64,000 nucleotides of DNA, taken from contig NZ_CP031356.1 of assembly GCF_003355475.1 (NCBI RefSeq), positions 1,798,001 through 1,862,000 on the forward strand, in the 5' to 3' direction. The first letter of the stretch is position 1. Each line of letters starts with the position of its first letter. A program made the translations under genes and the position numbers. This stretch comes from Brachybacterium saurashtrense (lineage in GTDB: Bacteria; Actinomycetota; Actinomycetes; Actinomycetales; Dermabacteraceae). Shown in pieces: positions 1 through 20,385 of this stretch. The notes beneath the pieces were generated by a model. It did not search any database. It worked only from the letters and a program-made list of their open reading frames with translations, and was not told where the DNA came from.

Positions 1-364
1 TCACGGTGTAGCGCGCGGCCTGGACCACGGTGGGGCGCCCGGGCTGGGTGTAGCCGTACTCGCTCGCGATCCAGGAACGGCCCTCCACCTCGATCTCGCC
101 GGTGCCGAGCTCCTCGAGATCGGGCAGGGACTGCTTGCGCTGGTCGAGCCCGGCGCGGGCCTCCTCGAGCGTGAACCCGGGGCCGAATCGCTGCACGGTG
201 ACGACCACGTTCGCACGGAACTGACCGTCCACGCGCGGCTCGGCGACGGCCACCTGGACCCCGGGGACCGTCAACGGCTCCCAGTCCTCCGGCACGTCGA
301 GCGAGATCCGCGGCGGCCCCGGGAACTGCGCGCTCGGGTAGTCGATGCTTCTGGCCATGGACAT
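1..364 (-). CDS. LpqN/LpqT-like protein (3' end outside the window)
   Basis: The first 121 codons of a minus-strand gene run off the left edge. The protein starts MSMARSIDYPS and continues with beta-strand-rich sequence (ISLDVPEDWEPL, ANVVVTVQRF, LDQRKQSLPDL, WIASEYGYTQPGRP), resembling the mycobacterial LpqN/LpqT and DUF1795-type fold, small proteins often found beside ESX genes. No signal peptide or lipobox is visible, so it is probably cytosolic. A GGAG lies just before the ATG at 364; the ATG at 358 is an alternative start. It is last in the type VII-like operon but is separated from the WXG100 gene by a strong hairpin, so it may have its own promoter. Family assignment is by pattern only; the function is unknown. 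Confidence 0.6.
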   Translation of the reverse strand, partial: MSMARSIDYPSAQFPGPPRISLDVPEDWEPLTVPGVQVAVAEPRVDGQFRANVVVTVQRFGPGFTLEEARAGLDQRKQSLPDLEELGTGEIEVEGRSWIASEYGYTQPGRPTVVQAARYTV

Positions 365-409
365 GCTCCGTTCATCCCACCTCTGACGGCGCCCAACATA
401 TCAGGCATG

Positions 410-446
410 TGCAGGGCCCGAGCGGTGCTCCGCCCGGGCCCTGTGC
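410..446 (-). terminator. Hairpin between WXG100 gene and LpqN-like gene
   Basis: GCAGGGCCCG at 411-420 pairs with CGGGCCCTGTGC at 435-446, with an inner GCGG/CCGC extension. This GC-rich hairpin lies about 30 nt downstream of the WXG100 stop. There is no U-tail, as is common in actinobacteria. It probably ends or attenuates the upstream transcript. Confidence 0.5.
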
Positions 447-476
447 CGCTCCTCCGGCCGCCGCTGCCGCGCCGGC

Positions 477-746: not shown

Positions 747-827
747 GGTGCGGGTTCCCCTTCCTGATCGTTCGCGCCCGCACCCCCGATGCGGTGCGAC
801 GGCCTGCCGTTCTGCTCGATGCCTCCC

Positions 828-856
828 ACTGTAGAGCGGAGCCCCGTGCCGGGACA
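828..856 (-). promoter_or_regulatory. Candidate promoter for the WXG100 gene
   Basis: On the minus strand TGTCCC (851-856) and TACAGT (828-833) are separated by 17 nt. The TAnnnT -10 is acceptable for an actinobacterium; the -35 is weak. It would let the WXG100 gene be transcribed more strongly than the operon upstream of it. Confidence 0.35.
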
Positions 857-3900: not shown

Positions 3901-5413
3901 TGCGCAGCTGCGCCGGCGCCTCGCCGGAGCGCTGCGCGATCAGCTCCTCGATCCGCGACAGCAGCGAGGTGCCGCGGCCGGGGGTGTCGGCCAGGTGATC
4001 GCCCGGCAGCGGCGAGTGCGGGCTCGAGGTGTGCGGCAGCCACTTCAGCCACTGCCACAGCTCACGGCTGGACCGGGAGGTGATCGCCGCGATCGCCACC
4101 TCGGCCGGGGAGTGCAGGGCGAAGAGCTGGGTGACGATCGCACGGGCCACGCCGTCGGCCTCGTCGCCGCCGCCCGCCACACCGATGTTCCCGGCGTGTC
4201 GGAGCTCGGCGGCGACGGGCACGCCGGCGATCATCCGGTACTCCTCGTGCATGTCGTCGAGCATGTCGTAGTAGGTCGGGATCGCGTCGTTCTCGCCCGG
4301 CATCTCGATGCCCACCCGCGACTCGGCGATGCCCAGCCCCAGGCGCACGGTGCCGAAGGCGCTGTGCTCAGGACGGTGCGTCCACAGCAGCCGGCCCAGT
4401 CGGAAGGCCGCGTCGACGGTGTCCGCCGCGGAGGGCGTCTCCACCAGGCGGACCGCGCGCTCGAGGTCCTGCGCGGCGGTGACGCGGCGCTTGAGCGAGG
4501 CGAGCCCCTCCTCGAAGTTCGCGATCTGCCGTTCGAGCATCTTCTTCTGCTGGAACTTGCGGTTCAGGTACCCGGCGGTGGCCATCATCGGCATCATCAC
4601 CACGAAGATCAGCGAGAACGGGCTCTGGGTGAGGGAGAACATGAAGGCGCCCATGAGCAGCGGGGCGAACAGCATGAAGATCGGGAAGAACTGCGGCTGC
4701 GGCTCCTTCGGCGGGGTGGGCGCCTTCAGCGGCCGGTAGGGGAAGCGAGGCACCACGCGTGGGGAGCGGTTGAACTCGACCACCGGGGAGTTCGGCGCGG
4801 TCCCTCCCAGGCGGTGCAGGGCGATCACGGAGAACGTGGTCTGCCCGATCAGCACCGTGTCCGACGGCCCGATCACGGCGCGCTGCACCTGCTCCCCGCC
4901 GATCACCACCCCGTTGGCGGAGCGGAGGTCGACGATCTCGATCGAGTCGCCCACGTTGATGCGGGCGTGGCGCTTGGACAGCATCGGATCGGCGATGCGG
5001 ATGTCCAGATCGCCCTCGCGACCGAGCACGCTCGCCCCAGAGGGCAGCGGGAACTCCCTCCCCGCCTCCGGACCGGAGAGCACGCGCAGCAGGGCCACGG
5101 GCGCGCCGCGGGACTCGGAGCGGGTGGCGTACTCGGAGGAGGAACGCGCGATGGAGACCACGCTGCCGGAGCGCAGGCCCGCCTGGATCAGGTCGACGTA
5201 CCGGTCCAGCGAGCGCACGCCCTGGGCGCCGGGCCCCGCCCCCGGGTCCTGGACCTGCAGCGTGAGGCCCTCGGGCGCCTCTGCCTCGCCGCGCAGCGGG
5301 TCCGCGCTGTACAGCGCGTTGGCGACGTCGGCGACCGTCGCCGTGGCATCGGCGGTGACCTCGAGATCGGTCAGCCTGTCCTCGGGCCTGCGCAGCGTGA
5401 GCTTGATGCGCAT
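947..5413 (-). CDS. eccC: EccC/EssC-type FtsK/SpoIIIE ATPase with N-terminal FHA domain
   Basis: A 1488-residue membrane ATPase, the motor of a type VII-like secretion system. Residues 1-95 look ubiquitin-like (YukD type); 115-205 form an FHA domain (VLGREGDLDI, LSKRHARI, SANGVVI). Two hydrophobic stretches follow near 245-290. Three FtsK-type ATPase modules come next: GGTTGAGKS (Lys710) with Walker B IIIVDEF, GTGGSGKST (Lys1035) with LLLVDG, and GPMGSGRTT, where Arg1313 replaces the Walker A lysine. Only the first module therefore has both intact Walker motifs, in line with the view that the first EccC ATPase does the work. The FHA domain recalls EssC of Firmicutes rather than mycobacterial EccC. 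GGGGGAGGAG precedes the ATG. No EccB, EccD, EccE or mycosin gene is visible. Confidence 0.9.
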   Translation of the reverse strand: MRIKLTLRRPEDRLTDLEVTADATATVADVANALYSADPLRGEAEAPEGLTLQVQDPGAGPGAQGVRSLDRYVDLIQAGLRSGSVVSIARSSSEYATRSESRGAPVALLRVLSGPEAGREFPLPSGASVLGREGDLDIRIADPMLSKRHARINVGDSIEIVDLRSANGVVIGGEQVQRAVIGPSDTVLIGQTTFSVIALHRLGGTAPNSPVVEFNRSPRVVPRFPYRPLKAPTPPKEPQPQFFPIFMLFAPLLMGAFMFSLTQSPFSLIFVVMMPMMATAGYLNRKFQQKKMLERQIANFEEGLASLKRRVTAAQDLERAVRLVETPSAADTVDAAFRLGRLLWTHRPEHSAFGTVRLGLGIAESRVGIEMPGENDAIPTYYDMLDDMHEEYRMIAGVPVAAELRHAGNIGVAGGGDEADGVARAIVTQLFALHSPAEVAIAAITSRSSRELWQWLKWLPHTSSPHSPLPGDHLADTPGRGTSLLSRIEELIAQRSGEAPAQLRTPMTVDITQEPPLPPEPVTPSLVLIVEDDAPVDRARLVRIAERGPDVGVHVIWSAANVAALPAACRTYVAVEESVEGASAGHVRLGERFYPVTIETVSVEVASGVARHLSPVVDAGVPIDDDSDLPRAISYLKLGGMQMAEDPNSVIERWKENNSLTPRDGSEPQRRKHDANLRGLVGHNGQDAFHLDLRTNGPHALVGGTTGAGKSEFLQAWVLGMATAHSPDRVTFLFVDYKGGAAFADAVDLPHTVGLVTDLSQHLVRRALTSLRAELHHREHLLNRKKAKDLISLERTGDPEAPPSLIIIVDEFAALAKEIPEFVDGVVDVAARGRSLGLHLILATQRPAGVIKDNLRANTNLRIALRMADEADSKDILGDAMAAHFDPGIPGRGAAKTGPGRIATFQTGYAGGWTTDEPERARIDIVEKDFGTGEQWDVPAPPSTDSGDPGPNDISRVVATVRAAAESAGVPAPRKPWLSELADAYDLSRLPSRRTDEELLLGVMDVPEDQAQPTFSYLPDRDGNMAIYGTGGSGKSTTLRTLAISAASTVRGGPVQVYGLDFGASGLTMLEELPHVGSIVPGDDEERVIRLLRTLRSLIDERAKEFARVRAGSVAEYRELSGAPETPRILLLVDGMAAFREAYDYSTLSKWFTTFVQIATDGRQVGVHVIVTGDRPNAIPTSLGSSIQRRLIHRMAADDDYASFGEPKDVLDAASPPGRAIQDGHEVQVAVHGGDSNVAIQSREVAKLAEAMRRAGVSEAPAIEHLPERVEFASLCPVVDGRPVLGVADETLAELTYEPRGAFMVTGPMGSGRTTAMLTIASGLAAMPEPMRLVRFSSRRTPLTGLPVWDVEASDPDRVRELAGQLRETLESGTVGEGRLALFIDGVADFTGSGIENDLDKLIRACTREGQFVVGENESASWSQAYVLAQPFKAGRRGLLLQPGEMDGDSLLGTGLGRIRRADFPEGRGFLVSGGRAMKLQVAQITTG

Positions 5414-5525: not shown

Positions 5526-6236
5526 TCAGTCCTCGTCCGTGCCCTGCTCCTGGTCCAGCAGGGGCAGGTCCTCGGTGGTGACGAGGCGGGAGAAGACCGC
5601 GTGCTCGACGAGGCGGGCGCGGCGGTTGCTGGCGAGCTTGCCGGGCCCGCCGCGCAGTCCGCGCACACCGAGCCGGTCCAGCTTGTCGCACACGTTGTCC
5701 AGCTTCCGGTTGAACTTCGTGAGCTGCCAGCCCAGGCGCTGCGCCGCCTGGGCCGAGGTGGGCACCGCGCTCATGCCGGACCCCTCCCGCACCAGCATCG
5801 GCTCGGCGAGCGCCAGGATCAGGAGCTTCTGGCTCTCGGTGAGCTGCACGGAGCCCATCGTGGTCTCCCCCACCGGATCGTCGGGACCGGCGATGCGGGC
5901 GAACTCCGGCGACTCGGCATGGACTTCGAGATCGTACGTGGTGGGGCCCGCGGTGAAGACCACCTTGGTCACGTCGAACACCAGGGGGATGCGGGCGCCG
6001 GGCGCGAGCCAGGCCTGCATCGAGCCGGAGCCGTCGGTGATCGTGGCGGACAGCCGGGAGCCGATGTTCACCAGCCACCACATCGACTCCACCTGCACGA
6101 TGGTGAGGAAGCGGCGATGGAGGAACGGATTGTCCTCGTCGATGACGAGATCTGCCTCCCGGCCGATCGTGAGCTCCTCGCCGTCCTCGACGCGCAGCCA
6201 TTCGCCGCAGAACTCGACCGAAATCGTCGACGCCAT
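5526..6236 (-). CDS. FHA-like / winged-helix regulatory protein
   Basis: A 236-residue soluble protein. Residues 1-110 have an FHA-like beta-sandwich pattern (LTIGREADLVIDEDNPFLHRRF, then WWLVNIGS), although the usual SRxH and NG positions are altered to HRRF and NI. Residues 135-225 are helical and basic (LTESQKLLILALAEPML, AAQRLGWQLTKFNRKLDNVCDKL) and look like a winged helix-turn-helix. It sits between the Ser/Thr kinase and eccC, so it may read kinase output and act on DNA or on the secretion ATPase (inference). It has its own spacing of 73-112 nt on each side rather than overlaps. Confidence 0.65.
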   Translation of the reverse strand: MASTISVEFCGEWLRVEDGEELTIGREADLVIDEDNPFLHRRFLTIVQVESMWWLVNIGSRLSATITDGSGSMQAWLAPGARIPLVFDVTKVVFTAGPTTYDLEVHAESPEFARIAGPDDPVGETTMGSVQLTESQKLLILALAEPMLVREGSGMSAVPTSAQAAQRLGWQLTKFNRKLDNVCDKLDRLGVRGLRGGPGKLASNRRARLVEHAVFSRLVTTEDLPLLDQEQGTDED

Positions 6237-6309: not shown

Positions 6310-7971
6310 TCACCCTGTCTCCAGGCAGGCGGGGACCCAGTCGCTGGCCTGCCCGTTGGCGTTGACCGTGCGCACCTCGGCGCACAGGTCCTCCAGCTGG
6401 GGCGGGATCTCCAGCACGATGGAGTTCCGGCCGTGCACCTCGTGGATGGCGCCGTAGCGGCTCTCGTAGTTCCCGGGGACGTCCTTCCAGCGCGCCTGGA
6501 AGGACTCCTCCTCCGAATAGCCTGCGGGCGGCTCCCACACCACCTTCGCGCGTCCCGTCTCGGTCCCGTCCCCGCCCTCGGTGACCACCTCGACCCCCAC
6601 GGCGGTGGGGATGTCGGGCACGTCCTGCGGCAGCTCCGGGGCGTTGACCAGGGTGGTCGGGTTCTCGGTGGGCTCGGGCAGCAGGAGGTGCCGCGCTCCC
6701 AGCGTGGTGCCCACCCCGAGCAGCACGATGAGCACCCCGGCGAGGGTCACGAACGGCCACGCGGGGGTGGAACGGGTCCGCGGGGCGGGCTCCTGCCGGT
6801 GCGGGGGCGGCGGCGCGGGCGCGGCGGAGCCCGCCGACACCGCCCCGGCCGGGCGCAGCATCGTCGAGTCGGTGGCGCCGTCCACGGGCGAGGAGCGGTG
6901 CCCGACGCCGCCCCGGGGACCGGGCGCGGCGAGCGATCCCAGCGCCGGGGCCACCCCGGCGAAGGGATCGATCCGCGTCCCGCCGCCGGGCCCTGTGGTC
7001 GCGCCCGTCTCCGGATCGACCGTCGAGACCCGACGGATCCTGGTGTGGTTGTCGAGGTCGTCGTCCGCGGCGCCGTGGGGAGTCGGATCGGCGCGGTCGT
7101 CGAGCACGTCCATCGGCGTGACCGGCAGGGCGAGCGCCTGCTCGACCTGCTGCAGGCCGCGGCCGAGGGCGAGCGCGGTGTCGTAGCGCCCGGAGGGGTC
7201 CTTCGCCATCGCGATGGCGAGCACGCGATTGAGCTCGGCGGGGATGTCCGGCCGGTCCAGCGGCCGCAGGGGATCGGTCGCGATGCGGTGGATGAGGTCC
7301 GAGGCGGTGTTGCGCTGCCCCGCCCGCTCGAAGGGGGTGCGGCCCGCCAGCAGCGAGTACACCGTCGCGGCGAGGGAGAACACGTCGCTGCGGGCGTCGG
7401 CCCACGGCGGATCGGCGAAGAACTCCGGCGGGGACCAGGGGATCGACATCCCCTGCGATCCCTCGACGTCGTTCCCCTTCGCGGTCGCGACGGAGATGCC
7501 GAAGTCGGTGAGGGCGGGCCGGTTGTAGTCGTTGAGCAGGATGTTCGCCGGCTTGATGTCGCGGTGGAGGATCCCCGCACGATGCGCGGTCTCCACGGCC
7601 CCGGCGATCTGCACCCCCACGCGCAGCGCCTCGGCCACCGTGATCCTCTCGGTGCGGAACCGGAGCCCGTAGTTGGGGCGCGGGCAGTACTCCATCACGA
7701 TGTACGGGCGATGGTCGTCGGAGACCTCGGCCTGGTGGATCGCGACGATCGACGGATGCGTGGACAGCTGCGCCATCACATTGGCCTCGGCGTCGAACAG
7801 CTGTCGCACCGACTCGTCGAGCACGTTGGACAGCAGCACCTTGATCGCCACCCGGCGCTGCGGCCGGAACTGGCGGTACAGGAACACGTCGGCGAAGCCG
7901 CCGGAGCCCAGCAGCTGCTCGTACTCGTAGCCGGGCAGGCGCGGCGGGGAGGAGGGCGGTCTCGAGCTCAT
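6310..7971 (-). CDS. PknB-type membrane Ser/Thr protein kinase
   Basis: A 553-residue Hanks-type kinase. The N-terminal domain (about 15-275) has the glycine loop GSGGFADV, catalytic Lys44 in VAIKV, HRDIKPAN at 136-143 and DFG at 156-158. A Pro/Thr-rich juxtamembrane segment follows, then a single transmembrane helix (WPFVTLAGVLIVLLGVGTTLG). About 110 extracytoplasmic residues resemble a fibronectin type III domain (VVWEPPAGYSEEESFQARW, CAEVRTVNANGQASDW), not the PASTA repeats of PknB. The ATG at 7971 overlaps the stop of the FHA gene by 4 nt; an upstream extension is a shadow. With the adjacent PP2C phosphatase and FHA proteins it forms a complete write/erase/read set. Confidence 0.9.
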   Translation of the reverse strand: MSSRPPSSPPRLPGYEYEQLLGSGGFADVFLYRQFRPQRRVAIKVLLSNVLDESVRQLFDAEANVMAQLSTHPSIVAIHQAEVSDDHRPYIVMEYCPRPNYGLRFRTERITVAEALRVGVQIAGAVETAHRAGILHRDIKPANILLNDYNRPALTDFGISVATAKGNDVEGSQGMSIPWSPPEFFADPPWADARSDVFSLAATVYSLLAGRTPFERAGQRNTASDLIHRIATDPLRPLDRPDIPAELNRVLAIAMAKDPSGRYDTALALGRGLQQVEQALALPVTPMDVLDDRADPTPHGAADDDLDNHTRIRRVSTVDPETGATTGPGGGTRIDPFAGVAPALGSLAAPGPRGGVGHRSSPVDGATDSTMLRPAGAVSAGSAAPAPPPPHRQEPAPRTRSTPAWPFVTLAGVLIVLLGVGTTLGARHLLLPEPTENPTTLVNAPELPQDVPDIPTAVGVEVVTEGGDGTETGRAKVVWEPPAGYSEEESFQARWKDVPGNYESRYGAIHEVHGRNSIVLEIPPQLEDLCAEVRTVNANGQASDWVPACLETG

Positions 7972-10733
7972 ACACGCTCCCCGAACAGGAGGTGCACGCC
8001 GTCGCCGAGGTCGAGCTGGTCGGCGTCCCGCAGCACCACGCCCTCCCGCGGGCGCAGCCGCACCGGGTCGTAGCCGTGGCGGTGCAGGGTGGTGCCGTTG
8101 GTGGTGCCGAGGTCGATCGCGACCACGTGCCATCCCTCCAGGCGCAGCTCGAGGTGGGAGCGGGAGATGTCCTGCTGCGGGCTCGGCACGGTGATCAGCT
8201 GCGGCATGTCGTGCGCGCTGACGCGCGAGGCACGAGGCCGACGGCCGACGATCGCGGTGCGGTCCAGCACGAAACGGTCCCCGGTGGAGATCCTCACCGC
8301 TCCCAGCGGTGGGCGGGTCACGGAACGGGCCGGCCCCTGTAGGGCGGCGCCGCATCCGCGGCAGGTGGAGCTCTCCGGCGAGTTCGCATGGCCCTGCGGG
8401 CAGACCAGGCCGGGCAGCGTCACCTCCGTCCCGGCGCGAGGCGCCTCCTGCCGGGCGAAGGCGGCGGGGGGCGGGGAGTCGGGAGCGTCCTGGTGCCGTC
8501 CCGCGGCGTCGGCCGGGCGCGGGTCCCCTGCCGGGGGGCGCGAGGCGCCGTCGGCCCGGGTGGGGGTCCGGGAGTGCGCGGGATCGGCCGCGTCCCGGGA
8601 CCCCGGCTCCGCGCGATCCTCGCCGGGCGCGGCAGGCGACGGCGGGACCTGTGCGTACGGCGCGGTGCGAGAGGCGGCACCGTGCGGCGGCGCACTGGGG
8701 GCGGAGGCCTGCGGGGCGATCTGCACCTGGGGATAGTCCCGCGGGGGCGGGGGAGGCGCGGCGGCACGCCGGGCGGCGGTCTGCGCGATCTCCGGGGCGC
8801 TCCGGCCCACACCGGGCACCCAGTCGATGAAGTCGCCGGCCGCGGGCGGGGGCTCTGTCGCCGGCGAGGGCTCTGCCGCGGCCGCGGCGGGCGCCGCCGG
8901 CCCCGCGGGGTGCGGGGAGCCGGTGGTGGCCGTCCCCGTCGGGGCGGAGGTCCCGTCGGCGACCGGGGACCTGCCGTCCCGCTCTGCCTGCGGGCCGATC
9001 GGGCGGGCGTGCCCGTCGACGGCCCCAGCGGCTCCGGGCTCGTCGGTGTGCTCCTCGTCCTCACCGCGCCGCACCGCGGCGTCCTCGATGCGCCGGTAGA
9101 TCGTCTGGCCGAAGAGGTCGTCGTAGGAGCGGGAGCTCTCGAGATCTCCCGAGACGGCGGCCGCGCTGCGCGGCGGTTCGGGGGCCTCGGGAGGCGGCGC
9201 GGACTGCTCACCGGCAGCGTCGTGGCCGCGGTCCGCGGGCGGGTGGGACGGGCCGTCGTCCACGCGGTAGACCTGCGTCACCGCGGCCCCCGCGGGGTTC
9301 TCCTGCGGGGCGGCGCGCTCCGGGGCGTCGGCGCTCTCCCGCCGGTCGGCGCCCGCCTGCGGAGCGGTCGTCGGCGAGGACGGCGCCGCACCGTCCTGGG
9401 TCGACGGCGAGGACGGGCCGCCCACCGTGACCTCCGCGGGAGTGCCGGCCGACCGCGACGTCGGGACCGGCGCGGACGCCGCGGCGCGGGCCGCCTGCGC
9501 AGGGGACGCGCTCGCCGCGCCATCGGCCGTCGTCGCGCCATCGGCCGTCGGCCCGGCGGGGGCCGAGCTCTCGCGCGGGGGGCGGCGGTCGAAGAGCGAG
9601 GTGCTCACCAGGCGGCGCCGACCGCTGCCGGCGGTCCGCGGGGCGGCGCCGTCCGTCGCGGCAGGCGAGGGCTGCGGCCCGCGGTCCGACGGCGAGGCGG
9701 GATCCGGCGTGTGCGTCGCAGGGGCGTCCGCGCGTGCGGCAGGGGCCGGGACGGTGGGGGCTGCAGGAGCAGGGGCCGCGGGCGCCATGGGCGCCGGTGC
9801 CGTGCGCTCCGGGTCGGCGGGTTCCGCGCGGGCCGGGGTCGCCGGCGGCGGCGCAGGGGCGGTCCGCGGCGGAGTCGAGGTCTCCGCACCCGACGGCTCC
9901 GCGGCCTGTGGCTCCGCGGCCGGTGCCGTCGGTCCCGGTGCCGCCGTCGCGCCCGCGCCGCTGGTCCCGAACAGACCGGCGAACAGGTTCGGGCCGGAGG
10001 ACGGCGCCTCCCCCGTCGCGGGCGCGCCGGCGCCCTGCACCGGTCGCGGGGAGGGCGGCGGCGCGGTGGTGCGTGCGGTCGGTCCCGGCTCCGACGTCGA
10101 CGTCGACGTCGGAGCCGTGGCGGGCTTCGGGGTCGGGGCCGGTCGTGCGGCGCGCCGCTGCTTCGCCTCCGCCGTCTCGATGGAGCGACCCTCGGCCTCG
10201 ACCTGGGCGGCGAGCGCCGTGCGTTCGGCCTCTCCCAGGCTCTCCGGATCCGTGAGGACCTGCACGAACCCGCGCACGGGAGCGACCCCGGCGACCAGCC
10301 GCGGCGCGCCCGTGCCCTCCTCCGGGGGCAGGTCGCCGAACGCGATCCGATGCACGCCCTCGAGGGTACGGAGCACGAACGGCTCCTCCTCGGTCCCCGC
10401 GACGTGCTGGGCTCCCGCGGCCGTGTACGCCGCGACCGGCGTGCTCCCCTTCACCCCGAGCACCGAGGTGCCCTCGGCATGGAAGCCGAACAGCAGCGCC
10501 GTGAGCGCCTCGAGGCCCGGCAGCTCCCCGGCCGCGACGAGCCGGTCCACGAACTCCTCGGGCGCGGGACGCTCCCCCAGCACCGTCCATGCCGCCTCGA
10601 TCACCTGCTTGCGCAGCCCGGGCACGAGCACGGCCCAGGCGCCGGCGCGCAGCACGAGCGTCGCCGGGCCCTGCCGGGTCCACACTCCCGGTCCGAGCAG
10701 GGGCGCCGCGTCCGGTGCCTGCTCCTCGGTCAT
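7968..10733 (-). CDS. Large FHA-domain protein with zinc ribbon and Pro/Ala-rich linker
   Basis: A 921-residue protein in three parts. Residues 1-200 form an ordered domain of unknown family (GPATLVLRAGAWAVLVPGL, VIEAAWTVLG, GVHRIAFGDLPP). Residues about 205-765 are a very long Pro/Ala/Thr-rich, probably disordered linker. The C-terminus has a zinc ribbon (Cys778, then CRGCG about 16 residues later) and a canonical FHA domain (VGRRPRASRVS, ISRSHLELR, GTTNGT). It overlaps the PP2C gene upstream and the kinase gene downstream by 4 nt each. It is a likely kinase substrate or scaffold; the linker offers many Ser/Thr sites. The N-terminal domain is not recognised. Confidence 0.75.
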   Translation of the reverse strand: MTEEQAPDAAPLLGPGVWTRQGPATLVLRAGAWAVLVPGLRKQVIEAAWTVLGERPAPEEFVDRLVAAGELPGLEALTALLFGFHAEGTSVLGVKGSTPVAAYTAAGAQHVAGTEEEPFVLRTLEGVHRIAFGDLPPEEGTGAPRLVAGVAPVRGFVQVLTDPESLGEAERTALAAQVEAEGRSIETAEAKQRRAARPAPTPKPATAPTSTSTSEPGPTARTTAPPPSPRPVQGAGAPATGEAPSSGPNLFAGLFGTSGAGATAAPGPTAPAAEPQAAEPSGAETSTPPRTAPAPPPATPARAEPADPERTAPAPMAPAAPAPAAPTVPAPAARADAPATHTPDPASPSDRGPQPSPAATDGAAPRTAGSGRRRLVSTSLFDRRPPRESSAPAGPTADGATTADGAASASPAQAARAAASAPVPTSRSAGTPAEVTVGGPSSPSTQDGAAPSSPTTAPQAGADRRESADAPERAAPQENPAGAAVTQVYRVDDGPSHPPADRGHDAAGEQSAPPPEAPEPPRSAAAVSGDLESSRSYDDLFGQTIYRRIEDAAVRRGEDEEHTDEPGAAGAVDGHARPIGPQAERDGRSPVADGTSAPTGTATTGSPHPAGPAAPAAAAAEPSPATEPPPAAGDFIDWVPGVGRSAPEIAQTAARRAAAPPPPPRDYPQVQIAPQASAPSAPPHGAASRTAPYAQVPPSPAAPGEDRAEPGSRDAADPAHSRTPTRADGASRPPAGDPRPADAAGRHQDAPDSPPPAAFARQEAPRAGTEVTLPGLVCPQGHANSPESSTCRGCGAALQGPARSVTRPPLGAVRISTGDRFVLDRTAIVGRRPRASRVSAHDMPQLITVPSPQQDISRSHLELRLEGWHVVAIDLGTTNGTTLHRHGYDPVRLRPREGVVLRDADQLDLGDGVHLLFGERV

Positions 10734-11608
10734 CGGGCGCCGTCCTCACGCAGACCGCGCGGCAGCGTGTCCTCGTCGACCTCCGTCTCGGCGTCCTCGG
10801 TCGGCGATTCGGCACTGCCGGCGGTGTTCTCCGCCGCGAGCGACTGCCCCACCACCTCGACGGCCTCGACGACCACCACGCTGATGTTGTCGTGGCCGCC
10901 CCCGTCCAGTGCGCGCCCCACCAGGTCGCGGCACACGGTGCGGACGTCCACCGGGCTGCGGAGCAGGCGCTCGATGGAGGCGTCGTCCACCTCGCCGGTG
11001 AGCCCGTCCGAGCAGATCAGCATCCGATCCCCGGTCTCCGCGGGGATCAGCCAGTAGTCCGGATCCGAGTCGGGGCCGGCCCCGAGCGCCCGGGTGACCA
11101 TGTGACGGTACGGGTGGGTCCTGGCCTGCTCGACGGTGAGGTCGCCGCGGTCCATGAGCTCCTGGACCACCGAGTGGTCCACGCTGACCTGCTCGAAGAT
11201 CTCGCCCGAGAGCCGGTACACGCGGGAGTCGCCGAGGTTGAGCACCACCCAGTAGCCCACGCCGTCGAGCACCATAGTCGCGACCACCGCGACGGTGGTG
11301 CCCGCGCCGCGGGTGGACTCGCCGCCCAGCTCGCCGATCCGCACCCCGGCCGCACGGAGCGCGTCGCCCAGCTGCTCGACGCTCACGTTCTCCTGGATGG
11401 TGAGCTTCTCGAACTCCTCCACCGTGATGGCGCTGGCGACCTCTCCGGCGTTGTGCCCGCCCATGCCGTCGGCGACCAGGAAGATCGGGGGCACGTCGAG
11501 AATGCTGTCCTCATTGGTGGCACGCACGTGGCCCACGTGCGTCATCGAGGCGGAGACGACCCGGACGGTGCCGTGGAGGTCCGGATCGGACAGGGAGCGG
11601 TCGGTCAC
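10730..11608 (-). CDS. PP2C-family Ser/Thr phosphatase (PstP-like)
   Basis: A 292-residue phosphatase with the expected PPM motifs: RATNEDS, FLVADGMGGHNAG, STRGAGTTV, VLNLGDSRVYR, MLICSDGLTGEV and GGHDNISVVVV. The metal-binding aspartates are all present. It lacks the transmembrane helix of mycobacterial PstP and ends in a short acidic tail, so it is probably cytosolic. It should reverse the phosphorylation made by the kinase two genes downstream. The 4-nt overlaps with both neighbours indicate coupled translation. Confidence 0.92.
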   Translation of the reverse strand: MTDRSLSDPDLHGTVRVVSASMTHVGHVRATNEDSILDVPPIFLVADGMGGHNAGEVASAITVEEFEKLTIQENVSVEQLGDALRAAGVRIGELGGESTRGAGTTVAVVATMVLDGVGYWVVLNLGDSRVYRLSGEIFEQVSVDHSVVQELMDRGDLTVEQARTHPYRHMVTRALGAGPDSDPDYWLIPAETGDRMLICSDGLTGEVDDASIERLLRSPVDVRTVCRDLVGRALDGGGHDNISVVVVEAVEVVGQSLAAENTAGSAESPTEDAETEVDEDTLPRGLREDGAR

Positions 11609-13629
11609 TGCACCCTCTCCACGGAGAGGGTGCGGTCGCCCACCGAGAGCCGAGCACCCTCGGGCAGCACGGTCGGGGTGTCGGGCACGAGGCTCTCGCG
11701 GGTGCCGTCCTCGCGCTGGATCGCGGAGCCGTTGGTGGAGCCCAGGTCCGTCACGGTGATGTCGTCCCCTGTGCCGTCCACGCGCAGGTGCGTCTTGGAG
11801 ACTGAACGGGTCTCGTCACGCATCACGAACAGCACCTCGCCCTCGCCGGCGCTGGGGTTGCGGCCCACCACCACCGCGCCCTCGACGATGCGCTCGGCGC
11901 CGTCGTCGGTGACCAGTCGGAGCTTCGGGGCCTCGGGCGGGCGCACGGCGGAGATGCGGGTCTGCTCGAGGTCGCCCAGGGGGTCGTCCGGGGCGGTGAG
12001 CCGGGTCTGCTCGTCGACGGCGTCGTCCTGCCCTGCCCAGGCGTCACCGGTGATGTCGCTCGGAGGGGCGGCGGACGGCGACGGGGCGGGCTGCGCGCCC
12101 GCGTCGTGATGCGCACCGTCCGCCGGAGCGGACGGGGGCACCGGTGCCGCTGCCTCCTGGTGCGGGACGGCCGGAGGCGGCCCCCAGCTCTGCACGGGCT
12201 CCTGCGGAGGGGCGGCGGACGGCGACGAGGCGGGGTCCTGGCTCGGAGGCGGAGGCTGCGGCTCCCACGAGGGCTGCGGCTCAGCGCTCGGCGGGCCCCA
12301 GGTCCCCTGCGGCTCAGCGCTCGGCGGACCCCACGTCCCCTGCGGCTCAGCGCTCGGCGGACCCCACGTCCCCTGCGGCTCCGCGCTGGGCCGGCCCCAG
12401 GACGTCGGGGAATCCGAGCGCGGCCGGTCCCGGGGATCCTGTGCCGGCATCGGCTCGATGGGCGGCGGGGCCCACCCCGAGTCCGTGCTCTGCACGAGAG
12501 CGGCATCCTGCGCGGGAGCCTGCCCCCACCCGGTGCCGGCGGCAGGTGCCTCCGGCTCCGGCGCCCTGGAGACGGGCGGCGCGTACGGGCTGGGGGCCGA
12601 CGGCGGCGCCTGCCCCCAGCCCTCGCCGCCGGTCTGCGCCGAGTGCTGCTCCGCCGAGGGGTCGCGCCACGCCGCGCCGGGCTCGGCCATGAGGTTCTCG
12701 TGGGTGGTCACCGCCACCGACGGCGAGCCGAGGTAGTGCTCAGAGCTCGCGCGCTCGAAGTTGTCCGGGCGCGGGGCCAGCGGGTTCCTCCCGGCCTTGA
12801 CGTCCACGACGACCGAGTCCACGGCGCGGTCGTGCAGACCGCGCAGCTGCCTGCGGGGATCGATGAAGATCGACAGCGCCATGATCAGCGGCACCAGGCC
12901 GTAGAGGAACCATCGGCCCAGGGCCCGCAGGAATCCGAGCGCGCCGGGCGCGCTCCCCCGGGTGACGCGCAGTCCCAGGATCAGCTTCCCGAGCGTGAAT
13001 CCCTTCGCCCCGGACAACCAGATGATCAGCACCGTGTAGGCGACGGGCAGGGCCACGCCCACGCCGATCAGGATGAACGGCAGCAGTGCGCCCGGCTCCG
13101 AGTCGAGCGCGATGAGCAGCGTTCCCACGATCAGCGGCACCATCACGAGCGTCGCCAGGATCCCGTCGATCACCGCGGCGATCAGGCGCTTGGCCGGCGG
13201 GGCCGGAACGCACCCGTCCAGCGGGGCCGCGAACGGGGAGAGCGACGGCATCGCGTCGGCCGCCGGCGCGGGCGAACCGCCGCCGCTCGGGGCGCCCGGT
13301 ACGGCACCGGGGGCGTTCTGGGACATCGGTGGCTGGGTGACCATCATCCGATCGTACTGTTCCCCGGGCCGCAGCGCGGTGGCGCCCGGCGCCTTCGGCT
13401 CCAGGGACTCCCGCGTGATCAGCTCGATCCCCTCGTCGGCCTCCTCCTCGCCCGGCACGGCGCCGAGGTCGCGGGAGCGCGGGACGGGTGGGGCCGACCA
13501 GGCACCGGGAGCATCCGTGGCACGGCGCTGGTAGGGAGAGGCCTGGTAGCGCGCACCGCACTCCCCGCAGATCACCGCCCCGGCGCTCAGGAGCGTTCCG
13601 CAGGTGCTGCAGTATCGCGTCTCGTTCAT
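11605..13629 (-). CDS. RDD membrane protein with N-terminal zinc ribbon and C-terminal FHA domain
   Basis: A 674-residue protein. CxxC pairs at Cys7/10 and Cys21/24 form a zinc ribbon. An RDD domain begins near Lys147 (RLIAAVIDGILATLVMVPLI, GFTLGKLILGLRV, RRQLRGLHDRAVDSVVV) and has several membrane helices. Residues about 300-575 are a Pro/Gln/Trp-rich linker containing an 11-residue tandem repeat. The C-terminal FHA domain has VVGRNPSAGEGEV, VSKTHLRVD and LGSTNGS. The ATG at 13629 overlaps the stop of the transglutaminase-like gene by 4 nt; longer upstream readings are shadows. It may anchor phospho-dependent assembly at the membrane (inference). Confidence 0.82.
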   Translation of the reverse strand: MNETRYCSTCGTLLSAGAVICGECGARYQASPYQRRATDAPGAWSAPPVPRSRDLGAVPGEEEADEGIELITRESLEPKAPGATALRPGEQYDRMMVTQPPMSQNAPGAVPGAPSGGGSPAPAADAMPSLSPFAAPLDGCVPAPPAKRLIAAVIDGILATLVMVPLIVGTLLIALDSEPGALLPFILIGVGVALPVAYTVLIIWLSGAKGFTLGKLILGLRVTRGSAPGALGFLRALGRWFLYGLVPLIMALSIFIDPRRQLRGLHDRAVDSVVVDVKAGRNPLAPRPDNFERASSEHYLGSPSVAVTTHENLMAEPGAAWRDPSAEQHSAQTGGEGWGQAPPSAPSPYAPPVSRAPEPEAPAAGTGWGQAPAQDAALVQSTDSGWAPPPIEPMPAQDPRDRPRSDSPTSWGRPSAEPQGTWGPPSAEPQGTWGPPSAEPQGTWGPPSAEPQPSWEPQPPPPSQDPASSPSAAPPQEPVQSWGPPPAVPHQEAAAPVPPSAPADGAHHDAGAQPAPSPSAAPPSDITGDAWAGQDDAVDEQTRLTAPDDPLGDLEQTRISAVRPPEAPKLRLVTDDGAERIVEGAVVVGRNPSAGEGEVLFVMRDETRSVSKTHLRVDGTGDDITVTDLGSTNGSAIQREDGTRESLVPDTPTVLPEGARLSVGDRTLSVERVQ
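12302..12400 (-). repeat. 33-bp in-frame tandem repeat in the RDD-FHA gene
   Basis: Copies start at 12302, 12335 and 12368, exactly 33 nt apart. They encode an 11-residue unit of the type PPSAEPQGTWG. The first two copies are almost identical and the third has diverged; a further degraded copy lies at about 12270-12300. Expansion of a disordered linker by recent duplication is the simplest reading. Confidence 0.85.
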
Positions 13630-16139
13630 CGGGAGCGTCCCTTCCTCGATGGCGTCGATGTCGTCGCCGCGGGGCGCGGCGCCGCGCGGCGTCGCATCGC
13701 CGCGGCACGTCGTGCGGCCTTCACCCGTGACCGGGTGCGTGCACGCTCCCGCTTCCGCTCCGCGCGCCGGTCCGTGGAGAGACGCCGGAACGAGCGCAGC
13801 GAGAGCGCCGCGCGGACCCGACGATGCCACGGCACCGCCGCGGCCATCCGGCGACGGGCCGCCATGACCTGCGTCCAGTACTCCTCGGAGGCCTCCGGCG
13901 GCAGATCGTCCGGCCCGAACACGGCTCTGTCGGCCCTCGAGGCGAGCAGTGCCGCGCCCACCGAGGGGCTCTCCGCCTCCAGCATCGCCGCGGTCTCGGA
14001 CCGGGTGCGCAGGGGATCAGGTGCCCGGCCCATGTCCGCCATCAGGTCGAGGATCTCCTGCCATCCGCCGTCGATCCGCTCCGCGAGCAGGTCACGGCCG
14101 CGGCGTCGGCGCCGACGCATCACCTTCGCGCCCACGATCCCGGCGGCGGCCAGCAGCGCGAGCAGCACCGGGAGCGCGGCGAACCCCAGGTAGACCACCC
14201 ACGAGGTGGTCTCCGGCGGGTCCTCGCCCTCCTCCCCGGAGTCCTCGCTCATCGCTCCGGGCGGCGGGTTCGGCGGCTCGGCCGGCGGGGGCGGCGGCTG
14301 CGCGACCTGCGGCAGCGGCTTGTCCACCTGCTGCGGTTCGATCTCGGTGGGGTCCTCGTCCTCGTCGGGTGCGGGCTCGAAGCGCACCCAGCCGAGGTCG
14401 TCGAACTTCACCTCCACCCAGGCGGTGACGTCCTGGCCGGTGATCGTGACGGTGCCCTCCTGCCCCTCGGGCACCTCGAAGCCCATCACCACCCGTGCGG
14501 GCATCCCGATCGAACGCGCCAGCACCGCGGTGAGCGCCGCGTACTGCTCCTCGTCGCCGATGCGCCCCAGCGGCTGCGCGTCCGGGGAGTCCTCGTCGAA
14601 GCCCACTTCCTCGAGCATCGCGAGCAGCCGCCCGGCACCGTGCCCGGAGAGGGAGGCGGTGTCGTCCTCGAGACCGTGCGAATAGAACGCGTCCGTCTTG
14701 ACCTGGCGAGACAGGGACTGGAAGCGTTCGACGTCCGAGTCGGAGTCCCCGGCCCACTCGTCCGCGACCTGGGCGAACTGATCCACCGTCGAGTTCTCCG
14801 GCAGGTCGATGTCCGCGAAGGTCGCCGTCTTCAGCTGCTCGGCCCCGGGCTCGGTGTACGGCTCGTAGGCGAGCTGATAGGTGTCGCCCTGCTGCACGCC
14901 GAGGGCGTTGACGGCCGTCTGGGACTGCTGGTTCAGGTACAGGTTCTCGGTGATCGCGCTGGTGCGCTCGGGCTCGATCTCCTCGACGTCGAGGCGGTTC
15001 AGCCGTGTGCCCAGCGTGGGCAGCCACACCCCGCGATAGCCGCCGATCGTCACCGTCGAGGTGGCCTCCTGCGTGCTCCCCTCGCGCAGGTCGACCCCGG
15101 GAGCAGTGCGCAGGAACGCCCCGGACGCGCTGTCCTTCGACTGGCTGCTGGCCACGTTGTACACCTGGAGGTCCCACTGGTCCATGCCCGCCAGGCGGAT
15201 CTTCTCCCCGCTGCTCACCCCGGTGATGGTGAACAGCTCCTCCTCCCGCTGGTTCTTGAGGTAGCCGCGGAACTCGGAGAGCGGGGAGACGTAGTCGTGG
15301 GGATCGAAGGGCGGGGCGATGTGGTCGCGGGCCGCGTACCGGATGGTGCCCGAGGGCGGGTCCAGCAGCGAGTGCGCGGCCACCGCACCGCCCCCGGCCA
15401 GCGCCATGATCAGCGCTCCCCCGATCACGCGCCGGCGCAGCACCGGGTTCTGCCAGGAGCCCGGCCGCACGCTGTCGGAGATGATCGTGGACTGGGCGCT
15501 GGAGAGCCGATCGCCCTCGAAGCGCCAGGTCAGCCAGGCCACCGAGAGGATCGCGAAGACGACTCCGCGCACCACCGGCTGGACCGCGCGATCGGTGCCG
15601 AAGACGATCGTGACCGCCATCAGCACCAGCGGGAACAGCCAGGCGAGCACGTAGAGACGGCTGCGCAGCACCGTGCTCGTGCCCAGCAGCACGAGCAGCA
15701 GGGTGCTCAGCCACACCACGGCCAGCACGCCCTGCGCCGCACCGACCGGCGGGGCCACCGTGAGCACCGACTTCCAAGCGGTGACGGGCGCGCGCAGCAG
15801 CTCCCACAGCGATCCCGGCGTGGGCAGGATCCCGAACAGCGCGCGGGTGGGCGCGGCGACCATCGGTCCGATCAGGAAGTGCACCAGCAGCACCAGCGGC
15901 GCGATGCGCAGCGGCCCCCAGCGCCAGCGCGCCCCGATCAGCGCGATCAGCGTGCCGAGCACGAGGGCCATCACGCCGGTGAGCAGGTACTGCAGCCCTC
16001 CGTAGACGTGGTGGAAGCCCAGCACGGCGAGGAGGAACAGCGCGCTGAGCGCGCTGACGTCGAGGATCCGCCGGCGCAGGGGGACGGTCTCGAAGTAGCT
16101 CGCCGGGCGTGGGCGCGCGGAGCGTGCGGCGGCGCTCAT
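13626..16139 (-). CDS. TgpA-like DUF3488/transglutaminase-fold membrane protein, triad lost
   Basis: An 837-residue protein with the usual layout: several N-terminal membrane helices (about 30-250), a large extracytoplasmic region with a transglutaminase-like core, one further helix (VVYLGFAALPVLLALLAAAGIVGA) and a basic cytoplasmic tail. The expected catalytic positions are all changed. The Cys of G-x-C-E-Q is Glu530 (GDEEQYAALT), the His of HAWVEV is Thr572 (TAWVEV) and the Asp of fDpTP is Glu588 (RFEPAP). It is therefore probably a non-enzymatic fold. It overlaps both its DUF58 and RDD neighbours by 4 nt, in the standard MoxR-DUF58-TgpA order. Confidence 0.85.
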   Translation of the reverse strand: MSAAARSARPRPASYFETVPLRRRILDVSALSALFLLAVLGFHHVYGGLQYLLTGVMALVLGTLIALIGARWRWGPLRIAPLVLLVHFLIGPMVAAPTRALFGILPTPGSLWELLRAPVTAWKSVLTVAPPVGAAQGVLAVVWLSTLLLVLLGTSTVLRSRLYVLAWLFPLVLMAVTIVFGTDRAVQPVVRGVVFAILSVAWLTWRFEGDRLSSAQSTIISDSVRPGSWQNPVLRRRVIGGALIMALAGGGAVAAHSLLDPPSGTIRYAARDHIAPPFDPHDYVSPLSEFRGYLKNQREEELFTITGVSSGEKIRLAGMDQWDLQVYNVASSQSKDSASGAFLRTAPGVDLREGSTQEATSTVTIGGYRGVWLPTLGTRLNRLDVEEIEPERTSAITENLYLNQQSQTAVNALGVQQGDTYQLAYEPYTEPGAEQLKTATFADIDLPENSTVDQFAQVADEWAGDSDSDVERFQSLSRQVKTDAFYSHGLEDDTASLSGHGAGRLLAMLEEVGFDEDSPDAQPLGRIGDEEQYAALTAVLARSIGMPARVVMGFEVPEGQEGTVTITGQDVTAWVEVKFDDLGWVRFEPAPDEDEDPTEIEPQQVDKPLPQVAQPPPPPAEPPNPPPGAMSEDSGEEGEDPPETTSWVVYLGFAALPVLLALLAAAGIVGAKVMRRRRRRGRDLLAERIDGGWQEILDLMADMGRAPDPLRTRSETAAMLEAESPSVGAALLASRADRAVFGPDDLPPEASEEYWTQVMAARRRMAAAVPWHRRVRAALSLRSFRRLSTDRRAERKRERARTRSRVKAARRAAAMRRRAAPRPAATTSTPSRKGRSR

Positions 16140-17542
16140 CGGCCCACCGCCCGCAGGGCCCTCGCCAGGGTGTCCAGCGACCCGAGAGTGACCACGTCGA
16201 GGCCGCCGATCGCGGAGCGGGTCACCTCGGCGCCGTCCACGCAGCGGATCGCCACGGCGGTGACGCCCACCGGCAGCTGCGTGGCGGCGGCGTTGAGCTC
16301 ACGGGCGGTGGTGTGGGACCCCACCACGATCATCACGGAGGAGGCGTTCGGCGCGAGATCGGCGGCCCGCTGTCCGATGGTGTGGAAGGGGGGCCGTTCC
16401 CTGGTCCGCTCGACCACGGTGTAGTCGTCCATCAGCTGCCGCATCGTGGTGGTCCGCTGGGTCTCCTCGACGGTGAAGGCGGTCAGCTCCTTCTCCTCCC
16501 GGTAGGTCTGGCCGGCGATCGACGCCGCGGCGGAGACGGCGAGCTCGAACTCGTCATCGCTCTCGTAGTGGTCGGCCCGGGTGTCCAGCGCGACCACCAC
16601 GTGCGAGCGCCTGGTCTCCTCGAACTGACGCACCATGAGCTTCCCGGTGCGGGCCGTGGTGCGCCAGTGCACGTGGCGGCGGTCGTCCCCGGGGACGTAG
16701 TCGCGCAGCGCGTGGAAGGCGATGTCGGAGCTAGAGAGATGGGAGGAGGGCGTGCCCTCGAGATCGCGGAGGAAGCCGGTGGCCGCCTCGTCGAGGCGCA
16801 CCGTGCGCGGGTGCACGTACAGCTCCTGGGCCTGCGCCCAGGTGACCTGGCGGCGCATCAGGGAGAGCGGGTCGTCGCGCACGGAGCGCACCGGCCCCAC
16901 CACCAGCACCGCGCGCCGCTTGGTGGGCACGGCGAAGAGCTCCTCGTGCTCGTCCTCGGGACCGAGCCGCGGGACCAGGAACTGGGCGGTGGCCGCACCG
17001 ACGGCCAGCTCGATCCGCGAGGGCAGGATCGGGCGCTGGGTGGGGTTGGCGACCTCGACCCGGCCCACGGCCCGGGTGCCCACCACGACGCGGTGGGTCT
17101 GCAGGTCCAGGGTGACCCGGTAGGAGGCGCGTCCCAGCACGAACAGCGCGGCGATCACGAGCGGCACGCTCAGCACGAACGCGATCACGTTCAGCTCCGT
17201 GACGTGCAGGGCGAGACCGATCGTCCAGCAGACGACGGTGGCGCCGAGCACGGCCCAGCCGATCGGCGAGACCACGTCCAGGACCGGGTGGAGGCGGTCC
17301 CGCCACAGGGCGGCCACGCGCGCCCGCACGCCGCGGAGCCCGCCCCGGGAGTGGCCGACGGCCTGGGGCGCAGCGCCCGGCGCGCCGGCGGCGTCCGAGG
17401 AACTCGCTGCCTGCGTCGCGCCGGTGGCGTCGGCGGGCGAGGGCGCCGGTACGCCCTCGGCGGCGCGTCGTCGACCCCTGCGCCCTCGCACCTCGCGGCG
17501 ACGGGACGGCGGGGGCTGTGTGCGCGGTCCGGACCCGCTCAT
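16136..17542 (-). CDS. DUF58 domain-containing membrane protein
   Basis: A 468-residue protein. A basic Arg-rich N-terminus and a flexible segment precede two membrane helices (IGWAVLGATVVCWTIGLALH and NVIAFVLSVPLVIAALFVLG). The DUF58 signature follows: DIAFHALRDYVPGDDRRHVHW, then RTTARTGKLMVRQFE. The rest has a VWA-like pattern (VVVALDTRAD). DUF58 proteins work with MoxR ATPases as substrate adaptors or chaperone partners. The start at 17542 is chosen because this ATG overlaps the moxR stop by 4 nt; upstream extension reads into shadow sequence. Confidence 0.88.
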   Translation of the reverse strand: MSGSGPRTQPPPSRRREVRGRRGRRRAAEGVPAPSPADATGATQAASSSDAAGAPGAAPQAVGHSRGGLRGVRARVAALWRDRLHPVLDVVSPIGWAVLGATVVCWTIGLALHVTELNVIAFVLSVPLVIAALFVLGRASYRVTLDLQTHRVVVGTRAVGRVEVANPTQRPILPSRIELAVGAATAQFLVPRLGPEDEHEELFAVPTKRRAVLVVGPVRSVRDDPLSLMRRQVTWAQAQELYVHPRTVRLDEAATGFLRDLEGTPSSHLSSSDIAFHALRDYVPGDDRRHVHWRTTARTGKLMVRQFEETRRSHVVVALDTRADHYESDDEFELAVSAAASIAGQTYREEKELTAFTVEETQRTTTMRQLMDDYTVVERTRERPPFHTIGQRAADLAPNASSVMIVVGSHTTARELNAAATQLPVGVTAVAIRCVDGAEVTRSAIGGLDVVTLGSLDTLARALRAVGR

Positions 17543-18513
17543 GCCGACTGCTGCCGCGCCTGGGGCGGCGCCACCTCGCTGAGGATCTTCGACATCACGC
17601 TCTGGGCGGTGGTGCCGGCGAACTCCGCTTCCGGGTCGAGAACGAAGCGGTGCAGCCACACCGGCTCGACGAGATGCTTGACGTCGTCGGGGATTACATA
17701 GTGACGGCCGTTGACCGCCGCCCACACCTTGACCGTGCGCATGAGCGCCAGGGCGCCACGGATGGAGACGCCCACCCGCACCTCCGGGGCGAGACGCGTC
17801 TCCTCCATGAGACGGGAGACGTACTCCAGCACGGCCGGATCCACGTGCACGGTGGAGGCCAGCTGGGTCATGTCGTTGACGGCCTGGAGCGAGATTCGCG
17901 GCGTGAGCTGGGAGCTGCGGTCACGCAGTGCGGAGCCCTGGAGGATCTGGACGCTCGAGGCGTGATCCGGATAGCCGATCGAGGTCTTCATGAGGAACCG
18001 GTCCAGCTGCGCCTCCGGCAGGCGATAGGTGCCCGCCTGCTCGATCGGGTTCTGCGTGGCGATGACCATGAACGGGCTGCTCACCTCGTGGGTGACACCG
18101 TCCACCGTCACGCGGCCCTCCTCCATCACCTCGAGCATCGCCGACTGCGTCTTCGGCGAAGCACGGTTGATCTCGTCGGCCAGCACGACGTTCGCGAACA
18201 CCGGTCCCTTGTGGAACTCGAAGGACTTGGTGTTCTGGTCGTAGATGGTCACGCCCGTGACGTCGGAGGGAAGGAGGTCGGGGGTGAACTGGATGCGGGC
18301 GCTGCTGCCCTGGACGGTAGCGGCGATCGCGCGGGCCAGCGAGGTCTTGCCCGTGCCCGGGGCGTCCTCGAGGAGCACGTGTCCCGGCGCCATCATCGCG
18401 GTGAGGACCAGACGCACCACCTCGTTCTTCCCCAGGAGTGCCTGACCGACGCTCTGCACCAGCTTGTCGAAGGTTTCGGCGAACCAGTGCGCCTGTTCGG
18501 GAGTCATCGTCAT
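17539..18513 (-). CDS. MoxR-family AAA+ ATPase
   Basis: A 324-residue AAA+ protein and the first gene of the long operon. Walker A is EDAPGTGKTSLA, Walker B is VVLADEINRASPKTQ, sensor 1 is IATQNPIEQAGTYRLPEAQLDRF, and the C-terminal lid has SIRGALALMR. MoxR ATPases act as chaperones that activate or assemble partner complexes, usually with DUF58/VWA proteins like the one downstream. The ATG at 18513 has a second in-frame ATG two codons later. Only a weak GAAAG-type ribosome site lies upstream, so the exact start is uncertain by two codons. Confidence 0.92.
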   Translation of the reverse strand: MTMTPEQAHWFAETFDKLVQSVGQALLGKNEVVRLVLTAMMAPGHVLLEDAPGTGKTSLARAIAATVQGSSARIQFTPDLLPSDVTGVTIYDQNTKSFEFHKGPVFANVVLADEINRASPKTQSAMLEVMEEGRVTVDGVTHEVSSPFMVIATQNPIEQAGTYRLPEAQLDRFLMKTSIGYPDHASSVQILQGSALRDRSSQLTPRISLQAVNDMTQLASTVHVDPAVLEYVSRLMEETRLAPEVRVGVSIRGALALMRTVKVWAAVNGRHYVIPDDVKHLVEPVWLHRFVLDPEAEFAGTTAQSVMSKILSEVAPPQARQQSA

Positions 18514-20374: not shown

Positions 20375-20385
20375 AGTGAAAGATG

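Follow-up and report, generated by a model that had tools for sequence, protein, structure and literature searches.

Which kind of system is encoded by an operon in which a Ser/Thr kinase, a phosphatase and several proteins with forkhead-associated (FHA) domains adjoin the genes of an FtsK-type ATPase and a WXG100 protein? Such an operon lies at one end of a 64,000-nucleotide stretch (the window) of Brachybacterium saurashtrense contig NZ_CP031356.1, positions 1798001-1862000 of a complete, single-contig genome of 3.72 Mb. The answer that we favour, at slightly better than even, is that the locus encodes a phospho-regulated type VII secretion system (T7SS), which would be built from two modules and would represent an actinobacterial variant that the cited papers on T7SSd and on the PFNA operon do not describe. 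Sequence comparison and structure models establish the gene content, the domain folds and the conservation of the locus, whereas each functional step, from sensing and phosphorylation through binding to export and chaperoning, is an inference.

A preliminary description of this DNA had proposed eleven minus-strand genes joined by six 4-nt overlaps. The gene coordinates agree: eleven genes at 1-18513 form one operon, with 4-nt overlaps at exactly six junctions, from MoxR/DUF58 down to FHA/kinase (Table 1). Past the window edge, the operon continues with the remainder of the LpqN-like gene and two further WXG100-like genes, and it ends before a convergent YajQ-like gene (named by eye). Most domain labels given to the products were matched in Pfam (MoxR, DUF58, Transglut_core, RDD, PP2C, Pkinase, FtsK_SpoIIIE, and FHA in three proteins). 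Two labels lacked support, EccC for the ATPase (see below) and winged helix for FHAwH, the FHA-like/helical protein that serves as a marker of the system in this analysis; the latter label is by eye only, because the protein had no Pfam match and no convincing PDB profile match (one at E=0.85). As for the four FHA readers that had been envisaged, three keep by eye the Arg/Ser/Asn motif, which we take to be the phosphothreonine-binding motif of FHA domains, and the fourth is divergent.

The putative export ATPase and its N-terminal domains

In the ATPase, a membrane segment precedes the FtsK-type ATPase domains. It scored 536 bits against EssC (TIGR03928) and 361 bits against EccC (TIGR03924), both under the cut-off. 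Since the former model scores higher, identity with EccC was rejected and the protein is better called EssC-like. Its closest named relative is the Brachybacterium avium ATPase (91% identity), and those of other Micrococcales are 56-60% identical.

Residues 1-95 had no Pfam match. An AlphaFold2 model of the two N-terminal domains, calculated with 19 aligned sequences (mean predicted local distance difference test score 89.7, predicted template modelling score 0.54), gave this region the order beta-beta-alpha-beta-beta-alpha-beta, which is that of ubiquitin, followed by an FHA domain. When a profile of residues 1-95 was compared with PDB chains, the best match was a redesigned ubiquitin (E=4.9e-10), with ISG15 at ~1e-4 and EccD1 of ESX-1 (4kv2) at E=0.034. 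In a Foldseek search with the two-domain model, the 50 rows listed were all FHA or FHA-like (YscD) by title, with GarA and OdhI in the lead; the best match for the FHA domain, which keeps GR, S-x-x-H and NG, was that of GarA (7rj3, E=1.4e-10). No ubiquitin fold was among these 50 rows, and the ubiquitin-like assignment therefore rests on the model topology and the profile. From these, a predicted ubiquitin-like domain leads the ATPase, ahead of the FHA domain.

A profile built without any bifidobacterial row matched N-terminally in the ATPase of Bombiscardovia coagulans (7.3e-6) and in 17 more ATPases of the bifidobacterial group, namely the protein of genome G468 and 16 proteins 47-75% identical to it, among them the named Alloscardovia theropitheci ATPase (0.0021). 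Within this group, domain E-values ranged between 1.3e-7 and 0.021, with about 30 proteins in the set. Three Bacillus EssC proteins gave no match, and the one match in an EccC lay in another part of the protein and was no better than chance (8.5). In the portions of the papers available, Garrett et al. 2024 could not identify a ubiquitin-like orthologue in T7SSd (PMC11217815), and according to Iyer et al. 2006 the YukD domain of actinobacteria invariably occurs in fusion with a protein of 12 transmembrane segments (PMC1779556). Fusion of a ubiquitin-like domain to the ATPase appeared in no title among the matches listed in a literature search. If the bifidobacterial T7SSd-like ATPases carry the domain as predicted, its fusion would explain the partner missing from T7SSd in Garrett et al. 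2024, and a ubiquitin-like protein fused to the ATPase is thus a possible answer to this stated puzzle.

The signalling gene set and the PFNA operon

The gene set recurs in other genomes. We examined 39 upstream regions, hand-chosen across many genera (six are from Brachybacterium; L181 and L209 stop at contig ends), for eight markers, namely MoxR, DUF58, the transglutaminase-fold protein (TGM), PP2C, FHA, kinase, FHAwH and ATPase. All eight were on one strand in 25 of the 39, and the operon is therefore not a chance arrangement; two of the 14 regions without the full set end at contig ends. One of the two main gene orders was FN3-MoxR-DUF58-TGM-(RDD-FHA)-PP2C-FHA-kinase-FHAwH-ATPase, the other PP2C-FHA-kinase-FHAwH-FN3-MoxR-DUF58-TGM-ATPase. 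A member of the same family (G640) kept RDD-FHA, PP2C, FHAwH and ATPase, and MoxR, DUF58, TGM and the large open reading frame (ORF) described below were not seen in its region. In distant lineages (G097, G220, G134, G171), too, parts of the gene set lie close to the ATPase.

The ATPase query matched 91 of 396 genomes of a phylum sample at E<=1e-20 and 242 of 396 of an order sample at E<=1e-60, both counts including other ATPase lineages. Within the genus, all 26 other genomes listed matched, and none was among the 20 unmatched rows shown. FHAwH was present in 164 of the 396 order genomes, and the protein of the window is 50-67% identical to 11 others. When the 126 strongest ATPase genomes (E<=1.5e-179) were used and the other 116 of the 242 set aside, both genes occurred in 101 of the 396 genomes, the ATPase only in 25, FHAwH only in 63 and neither in 207, with relatedness uncorrected.

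In 20 of the 25 full-set regions, MoxR directly adjoins an ORF longer than 1200 residues, which contained Big_9 and fn3 domains in all three of the proteins tested; no C-terminal transmembrane segment was predicted in these large ORFs of the relatives. Among the Brachybacterium regions it precedes MoxR in four of six (G699, G679, G404, G420). The gap between IspB and MoxR is empty in the window genome; loss of the FN3 protein was rejected as an explanation once a large Ig/FN3 gene, 73% identical to that of G679, was found ~0.5 Mb away at 2321001-2327144. Judged from the arrangement in relatives, the gene was probably displaced in this genome. The genes adjoining it look Tad-pilus-like by eye. 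In another member of the genus (G475, L180), a 373-residue ORF takes the place of the large protein, and the MoxR there has diverged (E=3.4e-47 against that of the window).

The motif [DE]x0-3TR[LIV] was found in 27 of 38 kinases, with 31 occurrences against a mean of 8.3 and a maximum of 19 in shuffled sequences (relatedness ignored), and in the examples inspected it sits, by eye, in the linker that follows the kinase domain. A GarA-like T-x-[VI][YF]R motif was rejected as a general feature, as only 7 of 37 FHA proteins had it. For the transglutaminase-like protein, none of the 30 aligned sequences has the catalytic Cys at what we take to be its motif position, and both Cys and His are replaced in the protein of the window. 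Thus, it does not appear to be an active transglutaminase, and by analogy the PFNA "transglutaminase" of bifidobacteria may not be an enzyme either.

According to the available text of PMC8430577, the PFNA operon consists of pkb2, fn3, aaa-atp (MoxR), duf58 and tgm, followed in some species by prpC, a hypothetical gene and fha, and Pkb2 of B. longum phosphorylates the PFNA MoxR. The same set of kinase, FN3, MoxR, DUF58 and TGM, known from Bifidobacterium (PMC8430577, PMC6803598, each in part), is present as a whole in the window genome. The order pkb2-fn3-moxR-duf58-tgm does not occur in the window, whereas some relatives have PKN-FHAwH-FN3-MoxR-DUF58-TGM, so that the second gene order contains the PFNA run with FHAwH inserted. 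A further difference is that the ATPase, WXG100 and LpqN-like genes share the operon in the window, whereas the main texts of the PFNA papers (PMC8430577, PMC6803598) do not contain "type VII", "FtsK" or "WXG100". The main text of PMC11217815 in turn contains no MoxR, DUF58, transglutaminase or PFNA, and no title among the literature matches listed joins PFNA with type VII secretion. The locus would thus join the literature on T7SS variants with that on PFNA, neither of which names the other in the main texts cited (PMC11217815, PMC8430577, PMC6803598). A tentative and rather doubtful extension is that PFNA-type operons across Actinomycetota, including one credited with bifidobacterial host immune sensing, could be the signalling/cell-wall half of a phospho-gated T7SS in which the ATPase brings its own ubiquitin-like and phosphothreonine-reading domains and, where not adjacent, acts from another locus.

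Proposed phospho-regulated secretion and its alternatives

In the mechanism that we propose, the first module (signalling and surface) would comprise the membrane kinase, PP2C, the FHA proteins, MoxR-DUF58-pseudotransglutaminase and the 2000-residue Ig/FN3 surface protein, a gene set known from the PFNA operon of bifidobacteria. The second (export) would comprise the EssC-like ATPase (itself bearing ubiquitin-like and FHA domains), the WXG100 proteins and the LpqN-fold protein. The kinase would sense an envelope cue and phosphorylate threonines on itself and its partners, and FHA domains, including that of the ATPase, would bind these phosphothreonines and recruit the ATPase to the membrane, where the fused ubiquitin-like domain may stand in for the EsaB/EccD contact with the motor. 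The WXG100 proteins would be exported, and the LpqN-fold protein may act as a substrate chaperone; PP2C would reset the system, and MoxR-DUF58 and the pseudo-transglutaminase would assemble the surface protein. As kinase, phosphatase, readers and motor are found in one operon, phospho-control of type VII secretion should be directly testable here. A WXG100-like ORF lies behind the ATPase in 17 of 20 hand-chosen downstream regions at E<=0.01, and in 15 of the 20 at E<=1e-6.

Several observations weigh against this mechanism. No WXG100 match was found behind the ATPase in G008 (~14 kb), in the first 7.5-7.9 kb for G713 and G614, or in G721. MoxR, DUF58 and RDD-FHA also exceed their own shuffles for [DE]x0-3TR[LIV]. 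The PFNA link is drawn from gene names and order in the available text of PMC8430577. An ATPase above the cut is missing from 63 of the 164 FHAwH genomes, and in 17 of the 94 genomes in which both were placed, FHAwH and ATPase are separated by more than 25 kb or lie on separate contigs. Finally, MoxR accompanied the set in 11 of 14 FHAwH regions (13 genomes, hand-chosen so that in most cases a window-like ATPase is distant or lacking; L254 is a flank only), and 10 of these regions contained no window-like ATPase; the remaining one (G664) begins exactly where the ATPase ends. The signalling set is thus also found without the ATPase, which suggests two modules that are often but not always joined, and wall assembly could be the only role of the FN3-MoxR-DUF58-TGM set.

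These data bear directly on the main alternative, which we regard as possible, though clearly less probable than a phospho-regulated T7SS: two independent systems, one for wall or surface assembly (kinase, PP2C, MoxR-DUF58-TGM, FN3) and one a small T7SS, would share a transcript; their joint expression would be of use, yet phosphorylation would not gate secretion. Besides the 10 of 14 FHAwH regions that have the first module without a window-like ATPase, the position of the FN3 gene in the window genome, 0.5 Mb off while the remaining genes stay together, is consistent with this. However, the modules are joined in many families, in two main gene orders, and the FHA domain that the ATPase itself carries keeps the phosphothreonine motif; both points speak against this alternative.

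It is also conceivable, but unlikely, that the locus is simply the T7SSd of Garrett et al. 2024, so that a new variant is unnecessary. According to the available text of PMC11217815, T7SSd likewise belongs to Actinomycetota, has an FHA-bearing EssC-like ATPase, a kinase, WXG100 and a large Ig-type surface protein, and lacks a separate ubiquitin-like gene. Counterparts of its FHA-bearing ATPase (TsdC), WXG100 protein (TsdA) and membrane kinase (TsdD) were all found in the window. A Bombiscardovia locus (L098), which we ourselves assign to the T7SSd layout, encodes a kinase, a 149-residue protein, a 1758-residue Big_13 protein, an ATPase, FHA and a 99-residue protein, and ATPases of both the window and the L098 group have the predicted N-terminal ubiquitin-like domain. 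However, the window adds MoxR, DUF58, the pseudo-transglutaminase, PP2C, RDD-FHA, FHAwH and the LpqN-like protein, and the 18-kb L098 region showed no MoxR, DUF58 or TGM. The window operon has no gene like TsdI, which lies at the T7SSd locus and has a Sec signal and a C-terminal transmembrane segment; such a segment was predicted in the 1758-residue protein, unlike in the large ORFs of the relatives. No TsdH-like gene (one transmembrane helix) was called in the operon, although small genes can be missed. In an ATPase tree of 60 rows, the window clade (22 rows, SH-like approximate likelihood ratio test (SH-aLRT) 97) was separate from the bifidobacterial-ATPase clade (32 rows, 99); this was a quick, midpoint-rooted tree with long outgroup branches, part of the available ATPases and no Olsenella uli TsdC. 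The best reading is that the locus is not T7SSd in the strict sense. Still, in one member of the second clade (G171), MoxR, DUF58, TGM and kinase lie in the vicinity of the ATPase, so the gene-set link is not confined to the ATPase clade of the window. Nor is it general to all FHA-EssC ATPases, since a scan with the bifidobacterial-type ATPase gave a TGM match in 1 of 80 loci and MoxR in 0 of 80 (mostly other FHA-EssC lineages, several on short contigs).

Other T7SS types also differ. T7SSa (ESX) has the ATPase, WXG100 and a ubiquitin-like part in common with the locus, but the ubiquitin-like domain is on EccD there (PMC11217815, in part) and on the ATPase here. T7SSb and T7SSe share the EssC-like ATPase with FHA, T7SSe also a kinase, a PPM phosphatase and an FHA protein (same source); EssC of T7SSb has two N-terminal FHA domains, whereas here the first domain is predicted to be ubiquitin-like and the second is FHA, and a stand-alone YukD was not found. 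The preliminary description had seen no EccB, EccD, EccE or mycosin in the window. Across the whole genome, EccB (PF05108) gave no match, while the same search was positive in 4 of 20 control genomes; EccD (PF19053) gave none, with a weak control (2 of 14 genomes matched, none over the cut-off); a separate YukD/EsaB (PF08817) gave none, with control matches in B. subtilis only. The ATPase query matched a single place in the genome (2 of 16 first-look candidates were scored). A complete ESX elsewhere in the genome was accordingly rejected, and no canonical ESX was found by the EccB, EccD, YukD and ATPase searches; these searches did not extend to EccE, mycosin, EssA, EssB or EsaA. The earlier idea of a reduced system fits less well, as the ubiquitin-like part is predicted inside the ATPase and the large Ig/FN3 protein is encoded elsewhere in the genome. 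That the ATPase moves DNA rather than protein, as many database records labelling it FtsK/SpoIIIE or cell division protein might suggest, is hardly credible, as EssC is the best NCBIfam model, WXG100 genes adjoin, and ubiquitin-like and FHA domains are T7SS features.

Gene inventory and neighbouring features

Table 1. Genes and domains of the operon and its surroundings (window coordinates unless marked as genome)
Feature	Position	Strand	Evidence or remark
IspB-like prenyl synthase	18952-19959		Named by eye; upstream of MoxR
MoxR-type AAA+ ATPase, 324 residues	17539-18513	-	PF07726 AAA_3 E=1e-63; first gene of operon
DUF58 protein	16136-17542	-	PF01882 E=1.1e-12; 4-nt overlap with MoxR
Transglutaminase-fold membrane protein	13626-16139	-	PF01841 Transglut_core E=5.5e-14
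RDD-FHA (Zn-ribbon, RDD membrane domain, linker, FHA)	11605-13629	-	PF06271 E=1.7e-14; PF00498 E=1.7e-5
PP2C-type phosphatase	10730-11608	-	PF13672 PP2C_2 E=1.3e-9
Long low-complexity FHA protein, FHA domain C-terminal	7968-10733	-	PF00498 E=1.5e-6
Membrane Ser/Thr kinase, 553 residues	6310-7971	-	PF00069 E=4e-37
FHAwH, FHA-like/helical protein	5526-6236	-	System marker
Export ATPase (TsdC/EssC-like), 1488 residues	947-5413	-	PF01580 FtsK_SpoIIIE E=1.2e-53
Predicted ubiquitin-like domain, ATPase residues 1-95	5129-5413	-	AlphaFold2 model and profile
FHA domain of ATPase, residues ~106-205	4799-5098	-	PF00498 E=2.2e-11
WXG100 protein, 89 residues	477-746	-	PF06013 E=5.7e-6, TIGR03930 E=1.3e-8, each under cut-off
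LpqN-like protein	364 to window edge	-	162 residues in full in genome; no signal peptide by eye
WXG100-like gene beyond window	genome 1797306-1797602		Pfam WXG100 E=0.0021
Second WXG100-like gene beyond window	genome 1796968-1797237		Pfam WXG100 E=0.015

The DUF58 protein has two hydrophobic segments at its N-terminus (hydropathy). RDD-FHA starts at MNETRYC, and a 33-bp tandem repeat of 3.8 copies (12274-12399) lies inside its linker. The long FHA protein has a Zn-ribbon-like Cys cluster by eye. The kinase has HRD and DFG motifs (by eye) and a transmembrane segment near residue 407 (hydropathy); its external part had no Pfam match and is FN3-like by eye only.

The WXG100 protein of the window narrowly missed the Pfam cut-off (27.0 against 27.3). 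For the LpqN-like protein, structure model matches support an LpqN-like fold, and a solved structure from Jonesia denitrificans (PDB 3lyd) is a relative. EspG-type folds were absent from the 50 rows listed for its model, and LpqN and PsbP folds scored higher than the Eag chaperones of type VI secretion (EagT6, SciW). Downstream of the ATPase in L248, L249 and L066 (G343) are proteins of ~400-590 residues with two central transmembrane segments; together with the WXG-size genes beside them and "LP-GW" proteins, these are possible substrates with chaperones. In two other loci, a WXG100-like gene pair occurs twice with identical proteins (L231 1842-3452 and L232 1827-3405, in operon direction), as after a recent tandem duplication. 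ARAGORN found no tRNA in the window, and 5S, 23S and 16S rRNA genes lie at 20385-25587, directly upstream of the prenyl synthase gene.

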